In this document: piece after piece, positions 1-15,418 of the stretch
Layout of the letters: each line of letters starts with the position of its first letter
Position numbering within the stretch: position 1 is the stretch's first letter
DNA from: Gammaproteobacteria bacterium
GTDB lineage: Bacteria > Pseudomonadota > Gammaproteobacteria > UBA6429
Direction of reading: 5' to 3'
DNA length: 18,818 nt
Assembly: GCA_003232015.1 (NCBI GenBank)
Contig: QIKU01000022.1
Span: 1-18,818 of the forward strand
Notes under the pieces: model-generated
The model's database searches: none
What the model was told of the DNA's origin: nothing
What the model saw: only the letters and a program-made list of their open reading frames with translations
Position numbers and translations under genes: made by a program

Positions 1-166
1 AACTGTAGGTTTTTATTTCTATAAATTCTGCGGATATTTTTTTGATTGCCGAAAGTTTATTTAAAATAAAGTTTAAATCCTTATTGTCGGCAACAACCAC
101 ACTGGAAAATAGAACTCCCAATGTTATCCATAATAATATTTTGACAATGTTATTTAGTTTCATCAT
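1..166 (-). CDS. LolA-like periplasmic carrier protein of the aryl-polyene cluster (partial, N-terminus only)
   Basis: The left edge cuts this gene, leaving about 55 codons. The start is an ATG-ATG pair at 166/163. The first ATG overlaps the end of the upstream acyltransferase gene by 17 nt, so the two are probably translationally coupled. The protein opens with a signal peptide: a basic MMKLNNIVK start, a hydrophobic stretch ILLWITLGVLFSSVVV, and a likely cleavage at VVA-D. The mature start has the pattern seen at the beginning of LolA-family proteins (LNFILNKLS...ISAEFIEIKT, where LolA has an A-x-F followed by polar residues). LolA-like proteins (COG2834) are regular members of aryl-polyene clusters and are thought to help move the product or its lipid carrier through the periplasm. 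The family call rests on this short segment plus context. Any secreted beta-sheet protein remains possible. Confidence 0.6.
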   Translation of the reverse strand, partial: MMKLNNIVKILLWITLGVLFSSVVVADNKDLNFILNKLSAIKKISAEFIEIKTYS

Positions 167-1079
167 TCCAGAAGTCATAAAAATTAAACCAGTTATACGG
201 CGACTTTATAATATAATGCTCCAGTCGGGAAACATATGTTTGTGTCCAATATTGTATTTCTTGATCTCTTTTTTTGCGATCAATATTCAGGCCATCTGAT
301 ATTAATTCAACATGAAGGTCATAGTTGTTACCGCCCTGGTATAAGCCACAAAATAGTACAACCGGTACTTTTAAAATTGATGCCATCAACATCGGGCCCG
401 CCGGGAAATCGACCTTATCACCTAGCAGCGTGCATTGTGTTTTTCGTTCCCCTTCGGTTACTCTATCGCCCAACATACCGACAAAATAACCCTCATCAAT
501 CGCCTGCTGCATTTGTAAAAGTGCATCGTTGTCAGCAAGATTAATCACGGTATCCGCAACATCTGGATTCAGTTCATCAAAAATCCGGGTAAGCATTTGA
601 TTATGCTCGCGATACATAAGTACCTTTAAGCGCACATGGCTATCTTTAACCGCCAATGAACGCAAAACTTCAAAACTACCATGATGCGAACCTAATAAAA
701 TACCGCCTTTACCCTGTGCCGTGTAGTCATCCAGAATTTTTCTTCCGTGGATATTTATCTTAAATTTATCATGTTGATCGGTTAAAAAAAACACACGATC
801 TAAAATGGTGGCTGAAAAATGGTGGATATGCTTTGCAATAGTAATAAAAGAAATTTTTGCTCCATTCTTTGCACAGTTTATGCGCCTAAAATAATTTTTA
901 GATGAACGAACAACCGTTGGCGAGGTAAGAAAGAAATAGGCAGTAATAGGGTATAAAATAATTCTTGCGGTAGGGCGGCCAATATTTAAAGCAATCCAGC
1001 AAATTAATTTGAGAGTGAAAGAGTTACTTCTCTCGGTGCTTTCTTTCCAATTTGTGCTTTTTTCAGCTGCATTGCTCAT
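150..1079 (-). CDS. LpxL/HtrB-like lysophospholipid-type acyltransferase of the aryl-polyene cluster
   Basis: A 309-residue inner-membrane acyltransferase of the LpxL/LpxM superfamily. The catalytic H-x4-E motif is present (GSHHGSFE, His132 and Glu137 from the ATG start). It is followed by the family block GDRVTEGER...LLGDKVDFPAGP, and a hydrophobic N-terminal anchor lies near residues 26-55. I chose the ATG at 1079, 7 nt after the dehydratase stop. It gives the short NWKESTERSN lead-in typical of cluster members. An in-frame TTG at 1112 would add 11 residues and overlap the previous gene by 26 nt, without a better ribosome site. In aryl-polyene clusters this enzyme is believed to transfer an acyl or polyene chain onto a lipid acceptor. 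Lipid A acylation is an alternative, but the operon position, downstream of ACP, ligase and dehydratase genes, argues for pigment assembly. Confidence 0.85.
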   Translation of the reverse strand: MSNAAEKSTNWKESTERSNSFTLKLICWIALNIGRPTARIILYPITAYFFLTSPTVVRSSKNYFRRINCAKNGAKISFITIAKHIHHFSATILDRVFFLTDQHDKFKINIHGRKILDDYTAQGKGGILLGSHHGSFEVLRSLAVKDSHVRLKVLMYREHNQMLTRIFDELNPDVADTVINLADNDALLQMQQAIDEGYFVGMLGDRVTEGERKTQCTLLGDKVDFPAGPMLMASILKVPVVLFCGLYQGGNNYDLHVELISDGLNIDRKKRDQEIQYWTQTYVSRLEHYIIKSPYNWFNFYDFWNDETK

Positions 1080-1086
1080 AATAAAT

Positions 1087-1416
1087 TTACTTAGTCCCAA
1101 CCTGCTCTTCAAGCTTTATCTCGCCTTGTGCCACCAGTTCACCATTGTTGTATACGGAAAATTTTATTTTTGAATGCCCGGAACTTGCAAGAATCTTATC
1201 CTCAAGATGTACTGTTACCTCCTGTTCTGCAAGTAAAGGCTGCGAGAATTTTACACTGCTAAAGCCTGTTATTTTAAATGTGCTGTCCTGTTGCAAAATA
1301 ATGCTGGCGACTTCATCCAGAATAACAACGCCCGGGACAATCGGGTTGCCTGGGAAATGCCCCGCCAAACAGGAGTGATCTTTTTTTATCTGGAATGATG
1401 TATGTGCGGTTGGCAT
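1087..1416 (-). CDS. ApeI-like 3-hydroxyacyl-ACP dehydratase (hot-dog fold)
   Basis: A 109-residue single hot-dog protein. Residues 19-30 read GHFPGNPIVPGV, the FabA/FabZ/ApeI signature with the putative catalytic His20, followed by the acidic pair Asp34-Glu35 on the central helix. It is shorter than FabZ (about 150 residues) and matches the compact dehydratases of aryl-polyene systems. These remove water from 3-hydroxyacyl-ACP intermediates to create the conjugated double bonds. In the studied Xenorhabdus pathway, ApeI is reported to work together with a second hot-dog protein, ApeP. No such partner lies in this window, so it would have to be encoded further left. The gene starts 14 nt after the ligase stop and belongs to the same operon. 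Use in fatty-acid synthesis is possible but unlikely in this setting. Confidence 0.85.
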   Translation of the reverse strand: MPTAHTSFQIKKDHSCLAGHFPGNPIVPGVVILDEVASIILQQDSTFKITGFSSVKFSQPLLAEQEVTVHLEDKILASSGHSKIKFSVYNNGELVAQGEIKLEEQVGTK

Positions 1417-1430
1417 TGTCTGATTTTTAT

Positions 1431-2780
1431 CTACCCTGTTTTAGATTTACATTGACACGATAATTCAATAAGTGCCTGTCGGGTTAGCTTTCCGGTTTTA
1501 TTATAAGGTAAACTTTTCACCGTATATATTGGACGAGGAATAAAAACACGGTCGACCTTCTGTGCTAACTCTACTGAAATTTGCTTGGTGGTTAATTGTT
1601 CAGTTACCACAAACGCCGTTAGCCGCGATACTTCATTATTATCATCCGGTAAATAAACCGCAGCATCATCCACACCTTCAATCGATTCAAGTTTGAGCTT
1701 TAAATCAGACAAAGAACCACGCTTGCCAGCAACATTTACCATGTCATCATCCCTGCCTAATAGCTTAAAGTGATGCTCATCTTCAACCTTAACAACATCA
1801 TTTAAGGTAATGTCTTTGTCCATATAGGGCGCATCTATGTACGCTTTATTGCCAGCTGGGTAAATACGTATACCTTTATATAGTTGCCAGGTTTGTTCTT
1901 TTAAGGTTTCACGCGAGGCCATTGAACCCACTTCCGTACAACCAAATATTTCCTTAACCGTTGCTTTCATTTTATCTTCCACCTGCATCGCCACTTCACT
2001 GCGCAAGGGCGCTGTTGCGGATATAATAAACCCAATATTTTTCCACTGTATATTACTGGTCGAGGCACAGGCTCGCAAATGCACTGGCGTTGTTATTAGA
2101 ATAACAGCCTGCGGTGCAGACTCAATCGCTCGGCGAATATCTTCAGGGTAGAAAGGTCGGCCAGCATAAACAGGACAGGTATTTTGCAAACTGTAAAGAA
2201 TGGATGTTTCAAGGCCATACATATGTTGCGGCGGTACGGTTGAAACAATGTAGGCCGGATTCTTATCCAGCCCAAACCGATCCGCGGCCATCTGCGCTCC
2301 CATTACCAGCGCTTTCCATGTTTTGCTGTTACCCTGCGGCTTACCCGTGCTGCCCGAAGTAAAGGCTATCGCAGCTACCTGCTCGCCATCAATAGCAGGG
2401 GTTTTAATTTTGTTATTTGATTCCGTTGATTTATTTTCTTTTTTAAACAGTTTGCGTACATTTAACTGTTCCAGCTCTAACGCCTCTAATTTTTCTTCAG
2501 TAAGGCAATAGCTATCAGCATAATCTTCTACTACGGCATAGAGTGTTTCGAACACCCTGTTTTGCGGCAATAAATTTGTCTGGCCTTTTACGATAACCGC
2601 AGCAAAAGTCACCATAAAATAATAACGGTCTTCACATAAATTAATTGCATATTGATTGTTTGGTAGATGCGCGGCCACATGCATCACATCCGCCAGAAAT
2701 TGCGCATGCGTTATCTCAAGCTGCTCATTCCAGGCAACCAGCGAATCGCTATCTGCATGCTGTGTAAGGTTTAATTTCAT
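1431..2780 (-). CDS. AMP-forming acyl/aryl-ACP ligase (ApeH/XanA2-like)
   Basis: A 449-residue member of the ANL adenylating superfamily. Visible core motifs are the phosphate loop FTSGSTGKPQG (about 140-150), FGCTEVG (about 279-285), the hinge region GRDDDMVNVAGKR (about 342-354) and the C-terminal YNKTGK with the adenylation lysine near Lys431. It is shorter than typical acyl-CoA synthetases (over 500 residues), like the ligases of aryl-polyene clusters. Those activate an aromatic acid and load it onto the cluster ACP. In Xanthomonas, XanA2 is described as doing this with hydroxybenzoate, which fits the chorismatase next to this operon. The ATG overlaps the stop of the membrane-protein gene by one base (TAATG), so translation is probably coupled. 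Specificity (3-hydroxybenzoate, 4-hydroxybenzoate or coumarate-like) cannot be read here. Confidence 0.85.
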   Translation of the reverse strand: MKLNLTQHADSDSLVAWNEQLEITHAQFLADVMHVAAHLPNNQYAINLCEDRYYFMVTFAAVIVKGQTNLLPQNRVFETLYAVVEDYADSYCLTEEKLEALELEQLNVRKLFKKENKSTESNNKIKTPAIDGEQVAAIAFTSGSTGKPQGNSKTWKALVMGAQMAADRFGLDKNPAYIVSTVPPQHMYGLETSILYSLQNTCPVYAGRPFYPEDIRRAIESAPQAVILITTPVHLRACASTSNIQWKNIGFIISATAPLRSEVAMQVEDKMKATVKEIFGCTEVGSMASRETLKEQTWQLYKGIRIYPAGNKAYIDAPYMDKDITLNDVVKVEDEHHFKLLGRDDDMVNVAGKRGSLSDLKLKLESIEGVDDAAVYLPDDNNEVSRLTAFVVTEQLTTKQISVELAQKVDRVFIPRPIYTVKSLPYNKTGKLTRQALIELSCQCKSKTG

Positions 2781-3400
2781 TAGCGGCTGCGCTGCACATT
2801 TATTAACTGTTTAATAAAAACAATAAACCCCGGATGCTCTAAATTTCGTAATACAATTCTACGTAACAGGTATTCGAGCATCACAAAGAGCACCACTAAA
2901 ATATAGTTTAAAAAATTAGTAATGTAAGACCATGTTTCCATATCGTAAAAGAAGGCAACCAACATTGATTCTATAGAAAGAAACAGAAAAAATAATACCC
3001 ACATGCAGGTTACAAAGCGGGTGTATTTTTTTTCTTTTTCAACCAACGGAGTGGTTCTTATTTTTTGTGCAATGCTTGTAATAAAAGCCGTTTGCCCGCC
3101 CATCAAGGTTTTACCAAACACATAAGCCAACACCAGAGGAATAAGCACCGGCGGTAAAAAGACAACAAGCTGTGCTTTATAAATTAAAATTGCACCAATA
3201 AGCAGGCTTAATAGTAACAACCCCATTGCCAGCCATTTGTGGCTCTGCAAAACATTTTGCAGCGCTATCATCAGCAACAGTACAATGATATAAATACCAG
3301 CAAACAGGTATTGTTCAATTACAACCAGATAATGCACTAAAAATGGATAGCTGATGCTGGCCAGCAAAACCAGTAACTTCCAGTGTTGTTTCTTTAACAC
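2780..3400 (-). CDS. COG4648-type polytopic membrane protein of the aryl-polyene cluster
   Basis: A 206-residue inner-membrane protein with about six hydrophobic segments, roughly at 8-27, 30-49, 56-73, 78-96, 129-150 and 158-180. Between the fourth and fifth lies FGKTLMGGQTAFITSIAQKI, which matches the conserved FG-x-TL...PLI-x-x-IA loop I associate with the COG4648 membrane family found between ACP and ligase genes in aryl-polyene clusters. Its biochemical role is not established; anchoring the assembly line or moving the product are common guesses. The start is GTG at 3400, because no upstream ATG lies in frame and the N-terminus KKQHWKLLVLLAS is a good first membrane segment. No strong ribosome site is visible. 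It starts 40 nt after the ACP stop and runs directly into the ligase gene. Confidence 0.75.
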   Translation of the reverse strand: MLKKQHWKLLVLLASISYPFLVHYLVVIEQYLFAGIYIIVLLLMIALQNVLQSHKWLAMGLLLLSLLIGAILIYKAQLVVFLPPVLIPLVLAYVFGKTLMGGQTAFITSIAQKIRTTPLVEKEKKYTRFVTCMWVLFFLFLSIESMLVAFFYDMETWSYITNFLNYILVVLFVMLEYLLRRIVLRNLEHPGFIVFIKQLINVQRSR

Positions 3401-3440
3401 GGTGTTTAGTCTATTAAAGTTGGGGTAACAAAATTATAGT

Positions 3441-3716
3441 TTACTGCTGCTTGTTTTTTTCGATATGTTCGCTTAACTGGCGCAAAGTTGAAAAAATAGT
3501 GGCATTCTCGGGGTCGTCAGAACGTAGCTGAAACCCGTATTTCTGGGAAATGGCCATGGCTATTTCCAGTGCGTCGATAGAGTCTAGCCCCAACCCCTCA
3601 CGAAACAAAGGTGCTTCCGGCTCAATTTCAACAGCACTGATATCTTCCAGATTAAGCGCCTCTACAATTAATGCTGCAACCTCTAATTCTCTCTCACTGT
3701 GCTGACTACCGGACAT
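3441..3716 (-). CDS. Acyl carrier protein of the aryl-polyene/xanthomonadin type (ApeE/XanC-like)
   Basis: A 91-residue acyl carrier protein. The phosphopantetheine site is GLGLDSIDALE with Ser46, preceded by the usual acidic helix and the EAPLFREGLG loop. I chose the ATG at 3716 because GGGGAG lies 4 nt upstream as a Shine-Dalgarno sequence. An in-frame TTG at 3728 would put that site inside the gene. The carrier would hold the aromatic starter and the growing polyene chain as thioesters in the cytoplasm. It is the first gene of the leftward operon and sits about 36 nt downstream of the predicted transcription start. Only one ACP is seen, as described for XanC in Xanthomonas, whereas Xenorhabdus-type clusters carry two adjacent ones. 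A second ACP outside the window cannot be excluded. Confidence 0.88.
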   Translation of the reverse strand: MSGSQHSERELEVAALIVEALNLEDISAVEIEPEAPLFREGLGLDSIDALEIAMAISQKYGFQLRSDDPENATIFSTLRQLSEHIEKNKQQ

Positions 3717-3758
3717 ACTGCTCCCCAAAACTGTCTGTACTTGCCAATAAAAGCCAAA

Positions 3759-3915: not shown

Positions 3916-4989
3916 ATGGCATCATCCACTCTTAAAAATACTGGAAGAATGCACAAAATGTCTGTGGCTCATATCACTCCGCCTGGTCCACTCTTTTCGC
4001 CCGGTAATGCCCCCTTTAGCATTGCTTTTGCTCAGGCTGAACAAATTCAGGCGCTCGACAAAGAAAAAATTATAACCACTATTCATTTTAACGCATCGGA
4101 ACAACCGGCACCCAAAGATCCGGAAACCTTTAATATTGTACTACCGTCATTATCAGCTCCCAATTATTCTGAAGTCTGGATTGCACGTGATAAGCTTGTT
4201 TCAGGTCAGCAGGGTGATATTAAATTTAGAAAAAATAATGAGATTTTATTTGGCAAAATTTGTCTTGACGAGTCTCAGTTTGACTCACTGGAAGATTGCA
4301 GCAAACACGCCTATTCGTCGGTGCTGAATTTTATAAATAAAAAAGAGTTTCCACATTTAGTTCGCATCTGGAATTATTTTCCTGAAATTAATGGTAGCCT
4401 CGATTCAGTTGAACGTTATCAGTCTTTTTGCATTGGCCGCTACAGTGCCTACCAGAATGTAACAGAGTTCGAGCGCACCTTGCCTGCAGCAACGGCCATT
4501 GGCTCTTATGGCAAAGGCTTTATTATCTATTTTATTGCAACAACAAAAGCCGGCGTACAGGTTGAAAACCCACGGCAGATCAGCGCCTACCACTACCCGG
4601 AAAAGTACAGCCCTAAAAGCCCTTCTTTTGCACGGGCAACACTCAAGCACTGGCCGTCAGTGACGCATTTCTTTATTTCTGGAACTGCCAGCATTGTTGG
4701 ACACGAAACGCTGCATGAAGAAAATGTTTTGATACAACTGGAAGAAACACTCAATAATATTGACGCACTGGTTACAACCGTTCGCGACACCCACCAGCAA
4801 CCTATTCATGACATTACTAATCTGTCATTAATGAAAGTTTATATCCGCCACCCTGAGCATTATAAAATAATACGGGAAGCCTTATCACAACGAATGGGCA
4901 AGAATGTTTCGATTATTTATTTACAAGGGGATATTTGCCGGGAAAAACTATTACTGGAAATTGAAGCTTTTGCTGAATTCCCGCATTAG
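3916..4989 (+). CDS. Chorismatase, probable 3-hydroxybenzoate synthase (XanB2/Hyg5-like)
   Basis: A 357-residue cytoplasmic enzyme of the chorismatase (FkbO/Hyg5/XanB2) family, which hydrolyses chorismate and releases pyruvate. Family blocks visible are RIWNYFPEIN, ERYQSFCIGR, LPAATAIGS, VENPRQISAYHYP, FISGTASIVGHET and the C-terminal ICREKLLLEIEAF. Glu348 would be the catalytic glutamate. Cys341 sits exactly seven residues before it, the spacing I recall for Cys327/Glu334 of Hyg5, which marks enzymes making 3-hydroxybenzoate rather than dihydroxycyclohexadienoate. The start is uncertain. ATG at 3916 gives the longest form, but ATG at 3958 has a GGAAGA about 9 nt upstream and better spacing. 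The gene is divergent from the pigment operon and probably supplies its aromatic starter. XanB2 is reported to make both 3- and 4-hydroxybenzoate, so this protein may also feed ubiquinone synthesis. Confidence 0.88.
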   Translation: MASSTLKNTGRMHKMSVAHITPPGPLFSPGNAPFSIAFAQAEQIQALDKEKIITTIHFNASEQPAPKDPETFNIVLPSLSAPNYSEVWIARDKLVSGQQGDIKFRKNNEILFGKICLDESQFDSLEDCSKHAYSSVLNFINKKEFPHLVRIWNYFPEINGSLDSVERYQSFCIGRYSAYQNVTEFERTLPAATAIGSYGKGFIIYFIATTKAGVQVENPRQISAYHYPEKYSPKSPSFARATLKHWPSVTHFFISGTASIVGHETLHEENVLIQLEETLNNIDALVTTVRDTHQQPIHDITNLSLMKVYIRHPEHYKIIREALSQRMGKNVSIIYLQGDICREKLLLEIEAFAEFPH

Positions 4990-5229: not shown

Positions 5230-7113
5230 TTAGCTTTTAAGCTGGAAACGGTGCACTACACTATTGAGTTCTTCAGTTAAGCGGTTTAAATCCTTGCTGG
5301 CATCAAGCACCTGAGTAGCGCCAACCGCATTCCTTTCCGAGATAAGATTAATATCAACAATATTACGATTAATTTCTTCCGCTACGCCTGTTTGCTCTTC
5401 TGCCGCACTGGCAATCTGGGTGTTCATATCATTAATCGTGCTAACAGAACTGGTGATGGTGTTCAGAGATGCGCCTGCATCACCCGCCTGTTTAACCGTT
5501 TGCTCAGCGCGTTCACGACCTTGCTCCATTGTGCTCACCGCATTACGAATACCTGACTGTAGCTTTTCTATCATTGCCTGAATTTCATTGGTTGATTGCT
5601 GGGTACGACTCGCCAGTGTTCTTACTTCGTCGGCAACAACAGCAAACCCACGACCCTGCTCACCTGCACGTGCCGCTTCAATTGCAGCGTTGAGTGCTAA
5701 CAAATTAGTTTGCTCGGCAATGCCACGAATAACATCGAGGATAGTGCCAATGGACTCACTATCATCACGTACTTCATTAATAACGATACTGGCATTTTCA
5801 ACCTCATTTACAAGCTGCTCAATAGAGCTGATGGTTTCATTAACAACACTCTGGCCGGTATTCACCTCAGTATCGGCATGACTTGCCGCATCAGCCGCGC
5901 TGCTGGCATTGCGTGCAACTTCCGTAACAGTGGACGACATTTCATTCATTGCTGTTGCAACTTGCTCAATGCTTAGCTGTTGTTCATTTAAACTACTTTG
6001 TGTCGACTTTGTAATCGTCACCATTTCATGCGCGGATGTACCAAGACGACCGGCTATAATATTTATCAGCTCAATTATTTCACGCAACTGAATAGTGGTC
6101 TGCTGCATCGCCTTCTGTAGCTGGCCAATTTCGGCCGTTGAAGTCACTTCAATATCGGTGGTTAAATCACCCGCGGCAATCTTGTTCAAATTCGTTACAA
6201 CATCACCAAGGGGTTTAAGCATATAACGCATATAAACATACAGACCTATTAGCGCAAAAATAACGATCAAGGCTGTTAGGCCATACGCAAGCATGTTGAT
6301 ATTTTGAAGAGCGGTATAAGACTGGGTATAGTCCTTTTCAATAACAAGATGGGCGAGTGGAACACCTTTGTTATTGCTAATGGGCAGTATTGTAACAGCG
6401 CCAATACGACCTCTCATATCATGCTGTTGCAAGCTGCTTTCCCCTAGTACGGGTAGTTCAATGTGCTCCACGGGAAGGACGTTTTCTTTTGCCCTTGTGC
6501 TGTATTCAGTTTTACCCGACTCGCTAACAATGATAAGTTCTGAATGGTCATTTTTTTTGAAATCTTCGATAGCGTCTTGCAAATTACGCGCAAAAATACC
6601 CACACCGATGGTTTTCCCACGCATTGTAAGCGGGAAGGCAACAATAGCAACGAGGCGGCCATCTTCAGCACGCTCTATTCCTCGCATAACCTTACCGGTT
6701 GTAATTGCCTGCATGACGAGTGATTTATTCGTTTTACCCTTAAATGCCTGTGGTGCTGAAAAGAGGACATTGCCATCAAGATCAGCCAACTGCATACGTG
6801 AAATAACCCTGGAAGCAGACAACAGGTTGAAGGTAGTCGTGGCACCTTCCTTAAGCGCCTCACTGTCTTTATTAAGCAGCGCCTTACGCGTTGCACGGTC
6901 ACGCGCCAGTATCGACGTGCCGGGCACCATCTTATCCATCTGGCTATCAACAATCTTCTTCCACAGAACCGCTTTCCCTGAAATGGTCGCATCAGCAAAC
7001 ATGCCTTCAATATGCCCCTGCGAGAGCATGCTGGTGCCAATCTGGGTAAAGGATGCCAGCAGCGTTACAATGCTGGCACCGATTGTGACTTTTGCACGTA
7101 AAGTTAAGCTCAT
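5230..7113 (-). CDS. Methyl-accepting chemotaxis protein with periplasmic Cache-like sensor
   Basis: A 627-residue transmembrane chemoreceptor. It has TM1 at about 8-30, a periplasmic sensory region at about 32-272, TM2 at about 274-297, a HAMP domain at about 298-350 and a C-terminal signalling coiled coil. The conserved hairpin tip [20 protein letters not shown] and [15 protein letters not shown] identify the kinase-control tip that contacts CheA/CheW. The sensor contains [12 protein letters not shown] and [12 protein letters not shown]...[12 protein letters not shown], a pattern like Cache (PAS-like) domains, so small-molecule sensing is likely, but the ligand is unknown. There is no NWETF-like CheR/CheB tether at the C-terminus (it ends HRFQLKS). 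The gene starts 30 nt after a secreted rhodanese gene, with AAGG as ribosome site, and shares its sigma-28 promoter. Confidence 0.93.
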
Positions 7114-7143
7114 ACGTAATGGCCTTAAATTGTGGATATATTG

Positions 7144-7563
7144 TTACTCGACAGGGTAGCCCGCAGTTTTCCATGCAGGGAAACCATCACGGAAATAATA
7201 GACCTTACTATAGCCCCAGCCCACTGCCTTGGCACTTGCTTTTGAACTTCTCATGCAGCTTTCGCCATTGCAATAAATAACCACCGCGTCATTTTTCTTA
7301 ATTTCCTTACCCATGCTGGCTTCGTTGAGTTTCTTTTTTAACTCAATGTGAATCGCGTCAGGAATACGTCCAGCGCCCCAGTCCTTATCGGAACGGACAT
7401 CGAGAAAAATACTGCCCTTGTCAAACAACGCTTTTGCTTCTGTAGCCGTAACTGTTTTGGCACCATCAATGCTCATCGGTGAAACCTTGCCAGCAGATTG
7501 AACCGATGCAATAACAGTAAAGCCCAATATGACGGCTAATAATTTTGATGTCATGTTTCTCAT
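7144..7563 (-). CDS. Secreted single-domain rhodanese, co-transcribed with the chemoreceptor
   Basis: A 139-residue protein with a signal peptide (MRNMTSKLLAVILGFTVIAS, cleavage probably near VQSA-G) followed by one rhodanese domain at about 38-138. Family marks are FLDVRSDKDWGAGRIPDAIHI, the active loop YCNGESCMRSSKA with catalytic Cys98, and GYSKVYYFRDGFPAWKTAGYP. Rhodaneses carry a persulfide on this cysteine and transfer sulfane sulfur. The second cysteine, Cys103, at the end of the loop could form a disulfide or take part in exchange. A strong AAGGAG lies 9 nt before the ATG. Both the export signal and the intact active site suggest activity in the periplasm. It is the first gene after a sigma-28 promoter and lies 30 nt before a chemoreceptor whose sensor also faces the periplasm. 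Confidence 0.9.
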   Translation of the reverse strand: MRNMTSKLLAVILGFTVIASVQSAGKVSPMSIDGAKTVTATEAKALFDKGSIFLDVRSDKDWGAGRIPDAIHIELKKKLNEASMGKEIKKNDAVVIYCNGESCMRSSKASAKAVGWGYSKVYYFRDGFPAWKTAGYPVE

Positions 7564-7681
7564 AAACTATATCTCCTTAAGACCAAAGTTGTGTTTTCGG
7601 GTGCCTGTTACATATTTACCCACGACTTAACTTCAAAAGCGCCGTTCAAGCAAATAAAAGAATCCTGCAGGCACAACAACT

Positions 7682-7708
7682 TTATCGGCGTCCTATTAGC
7701 CAACTTTA
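7682..7708 (-). promoter_or_regulatory. Sigma-28 (FliA) flagellar-class promoter for rhodanese and chemoreceptor
   Basis: On the minus strand the -35 element TAAAGTTG (7701-7708) and the -10 element GCCGATAA (7682-7689) are separated by exactly 11 bases. The enterobacterial sigma-28 consensus is TAAAGTTT-N11-GCCGATAA, so 15 of 16 positions match. The predicted start near 7674 gives a leader of about 110 nt before the rhodanese ATG at 7563. The site sits in the 241-bp gap between yajL and the rhodanese gene. It places the operon in the late flagellar/chemotaxis regulon. Confidence 0.88.
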
Positions 7709-12547: not shown

Positions 12548-14437
12548 TTAGATAGATGTTTTTGTTCTGGCAAATCCCTTTAATAGCCATTCCTGAAAAT
12601 CACTGGATTTTAGCGGCTTGCTATAGAAAAACCCCTGTAAAATATCGACACCCAGCAAATCCAGACTATCGATGGTCTTCTGATCTTCTACGCCTTCAGC
12701 CACAACCTGACAATTCAGGTTATGGCCCAGCTCGATAATGGTTTTGATAATGGCATGGTCACTGTGGCTATTGTGCATATCCAGTATAAATGATTTATCT
12801 ATTTTTAAAGTATCAATGGGCAGATTTTTTAGATAGTTTAATGATGAGAAGCCGGTACCAAAATCATCGATGGCCAGTCGCAACCCGGCATCAGAAAGCT
12901 GATTTAATATTTTCCCGGCGCGACCTAAATCATGCATAAGTGCCGTTTCTGTTATTTCAAACTCAATTTTCTCTGCCTTCAGTTCAGCACTTTCTAAAAT
13001 AGCATTTATCTCATCAAGCAATGAAAAATCCTGTAAGCAGTATGTTGACAGGTTGATGTTAACGCCAAAGACATAACCTTGCCGATGCCATTTTTTACAA
13101 TCATCCACAGCCTGCTCTAATACTTGTAATGTTAGCAGGCGGATTAACCCCATCTGCTCAGCCATGGGTATAAATTCATCAGGTAAAATATTACCAAGTT
13201 CCTGATGCTGCCAACGCGCAAGCACTTCGGCACTGTTTATCGTTTTCCGGTCACGATTAATCAATGGTTGGTAGGCAACGTGAATCTTTTTGTTTTCTAT
13301 TGCAACCCGCAGGTCAGCCATCAACGTCAACCGCCGCACACTGTGCTTGTTTTGTGTCGGGTCATATATTGCAAACCCGGATTGTGATTTTTTTGCCTGA
13401 TACATAGCAATATCTGCATGCTGCATAAGTGTCTCTGCATTATCACCATGCTCTGGAAAAATAGCGATACCGATGCTGGCCTTACTCTCGGTTGCAATAT
13501 TGTTGATACGAAACGGTTCGCCCATTGCGTTCAGGATACGCTCAGCGCACAGCTTAGAGCCCTCAAGATCCGTTTGTGGTAATAACACTGCAAACTCATC
13601 ACCCCCCAGTCGCGATATAGAATCTTTTTCACGAATTGAACCCATTAAACGTGCACTCACCATTTTTAAAAGTTCATCGCCAAACTGATGCCCCAGAGTG
13701 TCATTAATTTCTTTAAAACGATCAAGATCAATTAAAAATAATGCAAATAACAGGTTATCGCGCTGCGATTGTAGAAATAATTGCTTTAACCGATCATTCA
13801 GCAATGTTCTATTTGGCAAGCCTGTTAAGCTATCATGCAGGGCAATATGTTTTAGCTGTTCATTTTTTTCAGACAGTTTTTTTGATATTTTGCTGCTCAG
13901 TAACAGGCTTATCCAGACTGCAAGCCAGAGAATAACGATGCCGGTTGTCAGCATGCGCTGTTTTAAGGTTTTTGTTATCTGGATTTCTTCATTTGCTGCT
14001 GGTTCAAGCATAATGAGCTGGTAATTTTTGTTGGGAAGATCGCTTATTGCCCAATAATACTCATTGTTATCAAGGTAAATAATCCCATGCTTTCTTTTGC
14101 CTGTATACGCTACTTTCAGCTGCTGCGAGATAAGTGACGGATCAAGTTTTTTAATGTCACCTGCTGAATATAATATCTGCTGTTCTTTTTGAATGAGTAA
14201 AACAGACTGCGGAGTGGAAAATCGATTGCGAAGCTCTTCAAGATAAATTTCAGAAACATACTGATCTCCAGGTAAGGTAAGTCGCTCGGCAACCTCCTTA
14301 TTAAGATATTGTAAAAAAATAGTAAGCTGCGCACCCCGGCTTTCTGTAAGCTCCCGATAGACCAGAAGACCAAAAACAACTTGTGCCAATACAGTTATGC
14401 CCAGGACAGAAAGTAATATTTGTGACCGCAACCGCAT
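12548..14437 (-). CDS. Membrane GGDEF-EAL protein (c-di-GMP cyclase/phosphodiesterase)
   Basis: A 629-residue inner-membrane protein: TM1 at about 8-27, a periplasmic region at about 28-162 of unknown fold, TM2 at about 163-182, GGDEF at about 195-360 and EAL at about 370-620. The cyclase motif GGDEF (278-282) is intact. An inhibitory-site RxxD (Arg269-Asp272) stands exactly five residues before it, so feedback by c-di-GMP is likely. In the EAL domain the signature reads EVL (404-406). The other key blocks are kept: NINLS (460-464), EITE (494-497), DDFGTGF (524-530), Lys545 and EGVE (581-584). Both activities are therefore possible. It starts 9 nt after a DUF2892 gene that itself follows a secreted binding protein. 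This suggests that the periplasmic part receives a signal from that protein. Confidence 0.93.
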   Translation of the reverse strand: MRLRSQILLSVLGITVLAQVVFGLLVYRELTESRGAQLTIFLQYLNKEVAERLTLPGDQYVSEIYLEELRNRFSTPQSVLLIQKEQQILYSAGDIKKLDPSLISQQLKVAYTGKRKHGIIYLDNNEYYWAISDLPNKNYQLIMLEPAANEEIQITKTLKQRMLTTGIVILWLAVWISLLLSSKISKKLSEKNEQLKHIALHDSLTGLPNRTLLNDRLKQLFLQSQRDNLLFALFLIDLDRFKEINDTLGHQFGDELLKMVSARLMGSIREKDSISRLGGDEFAVLLPQTDLEGSKLCAERILNAMGEPFRINNIATESKASIGIAIFPEHGDNAETLMQHADIAMYQAKKSQSGFAIYDPTQNKHSVRRLTLMADLRVAIENKKIHVAYQPLINRDRKTINSAEVLARWQHQELGNILPDEFIPMAEQMGLIRLLTLQVLEQAVDDCKKWHRQGYVFGVNINLSTYCLQDFSLLDEINAILESAELKAEKIEFEITETALMHDLGRAGKILNQLSDAGLRLAIDDFGTGFSSLNYLKNLPIDTLKIDKSFILDMHNSHSDHAIIKTIIELGHNLNCQVVAEGVEDQKTIDSLDLLGVDILQGFFYSKPLKSSDFQEWLLKGFARTKTSI

Positions 14438-14677: not shown

Positions 14678-15418
14678 TTATATAATTATATTGCTTACCT
14701 GTTGCCCACCCACATGTTCTGCACCCTCGCTAACCGCCTTCACATTGCTACTATCATCAAATACCCAGGTGGAGCCGGTGTGGCCGATGGCAGTGTTAAA
14801 TTTTGTCACCATTTTTACCATTTTATTGGCGCTGCTAACATTGATACGCTCTTTAGTAAAATCACCCACCGTTGGTAAAATTGTTTTCCAGTGACCGGGA
14901 CGTTTTTTGCAATGCAGCCGGGTAACAACGGCAATGGGCTTATCCCAGCCACCGAGCTTATTCCAGTTAGTGAGCTCACCACGAAAAATAGCGCGAACTT
15001 GAGCAACCGATAAGTTTTTAATTGGGTTATTTTTATTAACAAGGATAAGAATAGGTTCAGCCGCAAGCGGGTAAAGTTTTATTTTCTTTTTATCCAGCTC
15101 TTGTTGGCTTAACGGGCAACATACAAAGCCAAATGTCGGGTGGTCGTGGCTATGCCTTTGAGCCAGTTTTATGCCAGCATTACAGCCCATACCAAGATTG
15201 GAATTTTTTCCGTATAGCTGCAGTTTTTTACCGGTTGACTCCTCCAGTTCAGATTTAAGATCATCAAAAATCACCCATGCAAAGTGTGCCCCTGCGCCGG
15301 TAATAGCGACGGGTTCGGCATAACTGTGAGAAGGTGAAAAAAATAGAAAGGCAACAGGTATATAAACAAGCCGCAATGTCTTTGTGATTTTTGTTATCAT
15401 ACTATAACGACTACACAT
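14678..15418 (-). CDS. Small secreted PstS-fold (PBP-like) substrate-binding protein
   Basis: A 246-residue protein with a signal peptide ending SHSYA-E (residue 34) and a periplasmic binding domain of the PstS-like class (PF12849 type). ITGAGAHFAWVIFDDLKSEL, VRAIFRGELTNWNKLGGWDKPIAVVTR and NTAIGHTGSTWVF align with family blocks. The phosphate-binding S-G-T step that normally follows FRGE-x-x-NW...R is absent; the sequence there is TRLHCKKRPGHW. The ligand is therefore probably not phosphate. The mature protein has four cysteines (79, 100, 101, 170) and several nearby histidines. No ABC permease or ATPase gene is near. An ATG at 15400 is an alternative start; neither start has a clear ribosome site. 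It leads an operon with DUF2892 and GGDEF-EAL genes, which suggests a sensory role. Confidence 0.8.
   Translation of the reverse strand: MCSRYSMITKITKTLRLVYIPVAFLFFSPSHSYAEPVAITGAGAHFAWVIFDDLKSELEESTGKKLQLYGKNSNLGMGCNAGIKLAQRHSHDHPTFGFVCCPLSQQELDKKKIKLYPLAAEPILILVNKNNPIKNLSVAQVRAIFRGELTNWNKLGGWDKPIAVVTRLHCKKRPGHWKTILPTVGDFTKERINVSSANKMVKMVTKFNTAIGHTGSTWVFDDSSNVKAVSEGAEHVGGQQVSNIII

Follow-up and report, generated by a model that had tools for sequence, protein, structure and literature searches.

A secreted two-cysteine rhodanese paired with a dCache_3 chemoreceptor behind a sigma-28-type promoter: a putative periplasmic accessory for sulfur sensing

The DNA analysed here (the window) is an 18,818-nucleotide stretch, contig QIKU01000022.1 of the gammaproteobacterial assembly GCA_003232015.1. 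On its minus strand lies a two-gene unit, in which a rhodanese gene is followed by a chemoreceptor gene, with a sigma-28 (FliA)-type promoter ahead of both. The features of the unit, listed 5' to 3' on that strand, are as follows.

7682..7708, minus strand: sigma-28 (FliA)-type promoter, TAAAGTTG-N11-GCCGATAA, 15 of 16 consensus letters
7573..7580, minus strand: rhodanese ribosome binding site, TTAAGGAG, with a Shine-Dalgarno-like AAGGAG before the ATG, read from the sequence
7144..7563, minus strand: apparently secreted single-domain rhodanese, 139 aa (PF00581, 63.9 bits; model pLDDT 88.7)
7492..7563, minus strand: putative signal peptide of the rhodanese, residues 1-24 (by eye; low-confidence stretch of the model)
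7249..7272, minus strand: active-site loop CNGESCMR with C98 (7270-7272) and C103 (7255-7257), from YCx4C conservation
7114..7143, minus strand: gap of 30 nt between rhodanese stop and receptor start, from the sequence
5230..7113, minus strand: chemoreceptor (methyl-accepting chemotaxis protein), 627 aa (PF00015, 156.8 bits; PF00672, 43.8 bits; PF14827, 38.6 bits)
6325..6957, minus strand: dCache_3 periplasmic sensing domain, receptor residues 53-263 (domain match, translation and model)

In full, the promoter reads TAAAGTTG GCTAATAGGAC GCCGATAA (7708..7682, minus strand), with a spacer of 11 and a single mismatch to TAAAGTTT-N11-GCCGATAA, the sigma-28 consensus given in PMC2859248 and PMC4866697. 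The original prediction of a near-perfect sigma-28 promoter was thus correct. A scan allowing up to three mismatches found three matches in the window against 0.40 expected, a number reached in 3 of 200 shuffles, and this site was the sole match with one mismatch. The promoter ends 118 nt before the rhodanese start codon (7563), and a transcript start is expected near 7674-7676. The ribosome binding site is also present at the related loci L001, L002 and L038. No terminator-like site was found between positions 4900 and 8500, and tRNA and Rfam scans of the whole window gave no match. The gene 5' of the unit encodes a DJ-1 family protein. Since this gene was matched upstream at L001 and L002 and at none of the 34 other loci surveyed (some with little upstream sequence), we take the unit to consist of the rhodanese and the receptor. 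The original prediction ended one gene short of this unit, leaving the receptor (7113-5230) outside, and had regarded a rhodanese as an unexpected member of a sigma-28 regulon. That surprise disappears with the chemoreceptor as second gene, which is usual content of sigma-28 units; we therefore rejected the idea that the rhodanese belongs to the flagellar regulon on its own. Such a promoter is to be expected of a chemoreceptor operon, which this unit is. In E. coli, the receptor genes aer and trg are preceded by sigma-28 promoters (PMC2859248). In the nearest relative, G001, two proteins exceed the FliA_WhiG cut-off, and two proteins above the FliA cut-off per genome were likewise seen in G002, G004, G005, G010, G012 and further genomes.

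Other genes in the window were noted in passing. A chorismatase-like protein (3916-4989, plus strand; PF21168) reaches 235 bits with TIGR04444, below the cut-off of 325, and opposite it, at 150-3728 on the minus strand, lie genes that by eye resemble an acyltransferase, a dehydratase, an AMP ligase and an acyl carrier protein. Further along, a PstS-like binding protein (14678-15418, minus strand) is encoded upstream of a GGDEF-EAL protein (12548-14437, minus strand), possibly another pair of a periplasmic partner and a signalling protein.

The dCache_3, HAMP and MCP signalling domains of the receptor each exceed the Pfam cut-off, an arrangement that it shares with other dCache_3 chemoreceptors (PF14827). 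Residues 1-287 were modelled with a pLDDT of 88.3. When solved structures were searched by sequence for relatives of the sensing domain, the best E was 0.28. PMC4822843 records dCache_3 in 236 MCPs with no structure as of 2016, and the literature searched, seen in part, yielded no dCache_3 ligand. A database search with the sensing region, restricted to proteins 0.55-1.75 times the query length, returned PF00015 proteins, that is chemoreceptors, in 62 of the 62 matches listed. The tree of the sensing domain was poorly resolved. The dCache_3 domain of the window receptor contains no cysteine. Among 33 receptors, the first 290 residues contain none in 23 cases (three of these shortened by a contig end), one in 8 and two in 2. 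As 23 of the 33 are without a cysteine in the sensing region, a covalent sulfur relay from the rhodanese to a receptor cysteine appears unlikely.

To survey the pair, one genome per species was scanned with a rhodanese alignment, giving 36 loci. At 33 of these, in Gamma- and Alphaproteobacteria, a match to the sensing domain of the window receptor follows the rhodanese on its strand, the gap measuring 1-351 nt by approximate starts; the exceptions were L011, L034 and L036. Genomes were then added by class and order, and duplicates removed. A rhodanese was called linked when a sensing-domain match started no more than 600 nt behind it, and this held for 56 of the 74 distinct rhodaneses, counting the window and excluding L095, a truncated copy. 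The median distance from rhodanese to the start of the sensing-domain match is 42 nt over the 56 pairs. Three of the 18 non-linked rhodaneses (L041, L053 and L071) still adjoin a chemoreceptor. L053 comes after one. L041 also comes after a receptor, in a rhodanese-receptor-rhodanese row that it forms with L054 (G252:C6:13754-16627). In G002, a second and distant rhodanese, L071 (L071:1-1953), carries a 14/16 site and stands ahead of a chemoreceptor whose sensing part is not of the window receptor's family; judging from this locus, the pairing may have arisen more than once. Later searches added 12 more distinct loci, of which five are linked (L112, L113, L115, L117 and the more distant L118), and the other seven, distant at 112-125 bits, showed no receptor match in flanks of about 1.5 kb. 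In the literature searched, seen in part and mostly outside subscription journals, we found no description of a rhodanese-chemoreceptor pair.

Some loci depart from the simple pair. The rhodaneses of L011, L034, L055 and L068 have no window-type receptor behind them. At L011 (L011:5995-10844) a rhodanese with a 13/16 site has behind it genes for a binding protein of the phosphonate type and for a PAS-GGDEF-EAL protein, and the sensing-domain protein of that genome sits on a different contig. At L012 (L012:1765-6037) two tandem receptors stand behind a single rhodanese.

Occurrence of the rhodanese is patchy. At E <= 1e-25 the class yielded it in 17 of 369 genomes, the order in 12 of 40 and the class around Kiloniella in 3 of 240; at E <= 1e-30 it turned up in 9 of 145, 2 of 148, 9 of 24 and 7 of 41 genomes of four further orders. 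All of these counts take in distant, non-linked rhodaneses. The same 369 genomes contain 26 rows of the sensing-domain family, spread over 20 genomes; 15 of the rows follow a rhodanese, 10 stand without one and one is a fragment at a contig edge. Because those 10 rows have no rhodanese beside them, the sensing domain can work without one. A same-family receptor of this kind occurs at L093 (L093:905-3849), where by eye a small lipoprotein-like gene lies upstream and a CheW-like frame downstream. Among 61 sensing-region proteins (window excluded), 21 come with a longest contig of the same size as that of a listed rhodanese match, a hint of rhodanese-receptor linkage that applies to metagenomes only and draws on 120 listed of 601 rhodanese matches.

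The rhodanese itself exceeds the PF00581 cut-off of 22.2 bits, and its model shows a confident fold past residue 30, with residues 1-4 and 19-23 below a pLDDT of 50. Both protein features named in the original prediction are found: a signal peptide, apparent by eye, and the intact active cysteine, C98. A signal-peptide-like start was scored by a crude rule in 51 of the 56 linked rhodaneses, and two of the five misses begin inside the protein. C98 is conserved in all 56. The motif YCx4C is present in every one of these distinct proteins and the longer YCx4CxRS in 53; among the non-linked rhodaneses YCx4C occurs in 15 of 18, and seven distant non-linked ones carry the loop YCNGxxCxLS, with the arginine missing. 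Four of the five best-scoring rows, that of the window among them, contain no cysteine besides C98 and C103; the fifth (L038) adds one at residue 13. In alignments the active-site loop has two extra residues compared with 6mxv and 3tp9, so it does not qualify as a short loop and turnover by the rhodanese is not to be assumed. Residues that separate linked from non-linked rhodaneses (8 rows excluded, L041, L053 and L071 among them) include P129, R66, D61, A64 and R105, and may reflect subfamily instead of receptor contact. Membership of two annotated families was rejected: TIGR03865, at 59 bits against a cut-off of 128.05, and GlpE (NF001195), at 31.2 bits against 102.

We scored promoter sites as the best consensus match (0-16) with a spacer of 11 in the 300 nt upstream. 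The thresholds of 12, 13 and 14 were set after a first look at L001-L036, and an earlier scan had used spacers of 10-12. Scores were obtained for 54 of the 56 linked rhodaneses, L026 and L032 having too little upstream sequence. The main set of 42 consists of the window and 41 loci whose genomes encode a FliA scoring above the family cut-off. In this set, 14 loci score at least 13/16, 18 at least 12/16 and 24 below 12. Control regions, taken from other genes at the same loci, reach at least 13 in 1 of 126 and at least 12 in 6 of 126 cases (14/42 versus 1/126, Fisher 7e-9), and the lone control match at 13 or above lies before a gene for what looks by eye like CheV, a chemotaxis protein. When the consensus was permuted 500 times, no permutation gave 13 or more at more than 1 of the 42 loci. 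Within 150 nt upstream the comparison is 14/42 versus 1/128, and after clustering at 70% identity a site is present in 9 of 29 clusters (Fisher 7e-7), or 7 of 29 by cluster median. In view of the shuffles, the permuted consensus, the control regions and the clustering, we rejected chance as the explanation of the promoter.

The orthologue sites at L001 and L002 score 15/16, and that of L038, TAAAGTTT-N11-GACGATAG, scores 14/16. Five linked loci found after the thresholds were chosen, all in genomes with FliA, score 12, 13, 13, 12 and 9. The sites are scattered over the rhodanese tree. Scores below 12 despite a FliA in the genome occur at L003, L004, L009, L014, L018 and L020, among others, and the alphaproteobacterial L008, L013, L015, L017, L030 and L033 have neither a full FliA nor a site. 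Among 12 linked loci from genomes that yielded no full FliA, one (L023) reaches 13 or more, and this site counts against the sigma-28 reading. Three of 17 non-linked rhodaneses have a site: L011 (13), L068 (14) and L071 (14). G023, G024 and G027 each have a linked copy at 14/16, against 8-10 for the four non-linked secreted paralogues in these genomes; this contrast is not general, since linked and non-linked copies score alike in G025 and G072 (11 and 11; 9 and 9). Against the expectation that relatives keeping the pair would also keep the promoter, the main set gives a mixed picture: a site stands at about one third of the loci at 13/16 or above, or at a somewhat larger share at 12/16, and is absent or unrecognisable at the rest, so that sites are strongly enriched but not universal. 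Judged by consensus matches, the promoter is kept in several lineages, not all, and with 24 of 42 linked loci below 12/16 sigma-28 control is not a fixed feature of the pair.

SoxB (E <= 1e-100) was found in 14 of 17 rhodanese-positive genomes compared with 136 of 352 others (369 genomes, Fisher 5e-4, kinship uncontrolled), and in 11 of 13 when only genomes with a receptor-linked rhodanese are counted (Fisher 0.002, kinship again uncontrolled). As 5 of 6 genomes with the sensing domain and no rhodanese match also have SoxB, this enrichment is not specific to the rhodanese. The closest species-named relative among the matches listed is Sulfuriflexus mobilis, an organism in culture, with a rhodanese 76% identical (P0016) and a receptor sensing region 71% identical (P0127). 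The suggestion that sulfur chemistry is linked to motility at this locus finds support, as a hint, in the pairing of a rhodanese with a chemoreceptor.

Known systems offer partial parallels. Periplasmic binding proteins assist chemoreceptors, as maltose-binding protein does with Tar and the ribose- and galactose-binding proteins do with Trg. Here too, a soluble protein in the periplasm would be the putative partner of a receptor in the membrane, but this partner is a reactive-cysteine rhodanese, not a solute-binding protein, and its gene opens the receptor operon. The conserved pair of a secreted two-cysteine rhodanese and a chemoreceptor is what is unusual; receptors with periplasmic partners are already known. 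PspE is a secreted single-domain periplasmic rhodanese with a cysteine loop; compared with it, the window rhodanese has the longer, two-cysteine loop CNGESCMR and adjoins a chemoreceptor. PMC3733917 terms PspE a putative thiosulfate sulfurtransferase. BH2092 (PDB 3nhv, 3o3w) has a YCxGxxC loop equal in length to that of the window rhodanese in alignments. The best NCBIfam match of the window rhodanese is the PQQ-dependent catabolism-associated CXXCW protein (TIGR03865), far below its cut-off.

The site, the gene order, the recurring pair, the partly recurring promoter and the two conserved cysteines are read from the sequences themselves; a periplasmic role for the rhodanese and an action on the receptor are what we infer from its fold, its cysteines and its place beside the receptor. 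The best reading of these data is that the rhodanese senses or processes a sulfane-sulfur compound as a putative periplasmic receptor accessory. We consider it probable, with some reserve, that rhodanese and receptor form a chemoreceptor operon of two genes, expressed along with the late flagellar genes, in which the periplasmic rhodanese serves the receptor as an accessory for sulfur sensing. FliA would transcribe the leader, the secreted two-cysteine rhodanese and the dCache_3 chemoreceptor, so that receptor and periplasmic partner would be produced together once flagella are under construction. In the periplasm, C98 would react with a sulfane-sulfur donor (thiosulfate, polysulfide or similar), with C103 as its putative resolving or redox partner. 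The loaded rhodanese could then dock on the dCache domain, and docking would alter how the receptor governs the chemotaxis kinase, allowing cells to steer by sulfur compounds. A more specific form, in which the rhodanese is a covalent chemosensor that gains sulfane sulfur as a C98 persulfide and shows that state to the chemoreceptor, is conceivable, and we hold it only tentatively.

An enzyme that makes the signal could give the same gene pair: the rhodanese would convert a periplasmic sulfur compound, and the dCache domain would bind the product (e.g. sulfite, sulfide or thiocyanate) with no contact between the two proteins. That none of the 56 linked rhodaneses has lost the cysteine loop is consistent with this, the cysteine-free sensing region of 23 of 33 receptors suits a small-molecule ligand, and the 10 of 26 sensing-domain rows without an adjoining rhodanese suggest that the domain may bind a ligand alone. 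However, a freely diffusing product would need no operon partner, and the loop, two residues longer than in 6mxv and 3tp9, argues against taking turnover for granted; we regard this explanation as unlikely. We would give still less weight to a redox sensor, in which a C98-C103 disulfide switch reports oxidants, not sulfur, to the receptor. The two conserved cysteines, five residues apart and alone in the window protein and three more of the five best-scoring rows, would suit such a switch, but the second cysteine also occurs in 15 of 18 non-linked relatives and is hence not special to the paired form, and the fold and cysteine position match sulfur carriers.

The absence of a window-type receptor behind the rhodaneses of L011, L034, L055 and L068, and of a rhodanese beside 10 of 26 sensing-domain rows, might suggest that the two are chance neighbours, a housekeeping periplasmic rhodanese riding on a chemoreceptor promoter with no joint function. 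Against this, gene order is kept at 33 of 36 loci across two classes, the distant rhodanese of L071 precedes a receptor with another sensing part, and four non-linked paralogues in three genomes are siteless where the linked copy has a site. A merely fortuitous neighbourhood thus seems very improbable.

On the accessory reading that we prefer, rhodanese and receptor may together form a sensor with which swimming cells navigate by sulfur compounds. If this is true, the partners of chemoreceptors would extend from binding proteins to a reactive-cysteine protein. If the rhodanese is in addition a covalent chemosensor, an enzyme fold, not a ligand-binding protein, would be the primary detector in chemotaxis to sulfur compounds. 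We know of no established receptor for inorganic sulfur compounds in motile sulfur oxidisers. The conserved two-gene unit is a direct candidate for such a receptor, testable in Sulfuriflexus mobilis.
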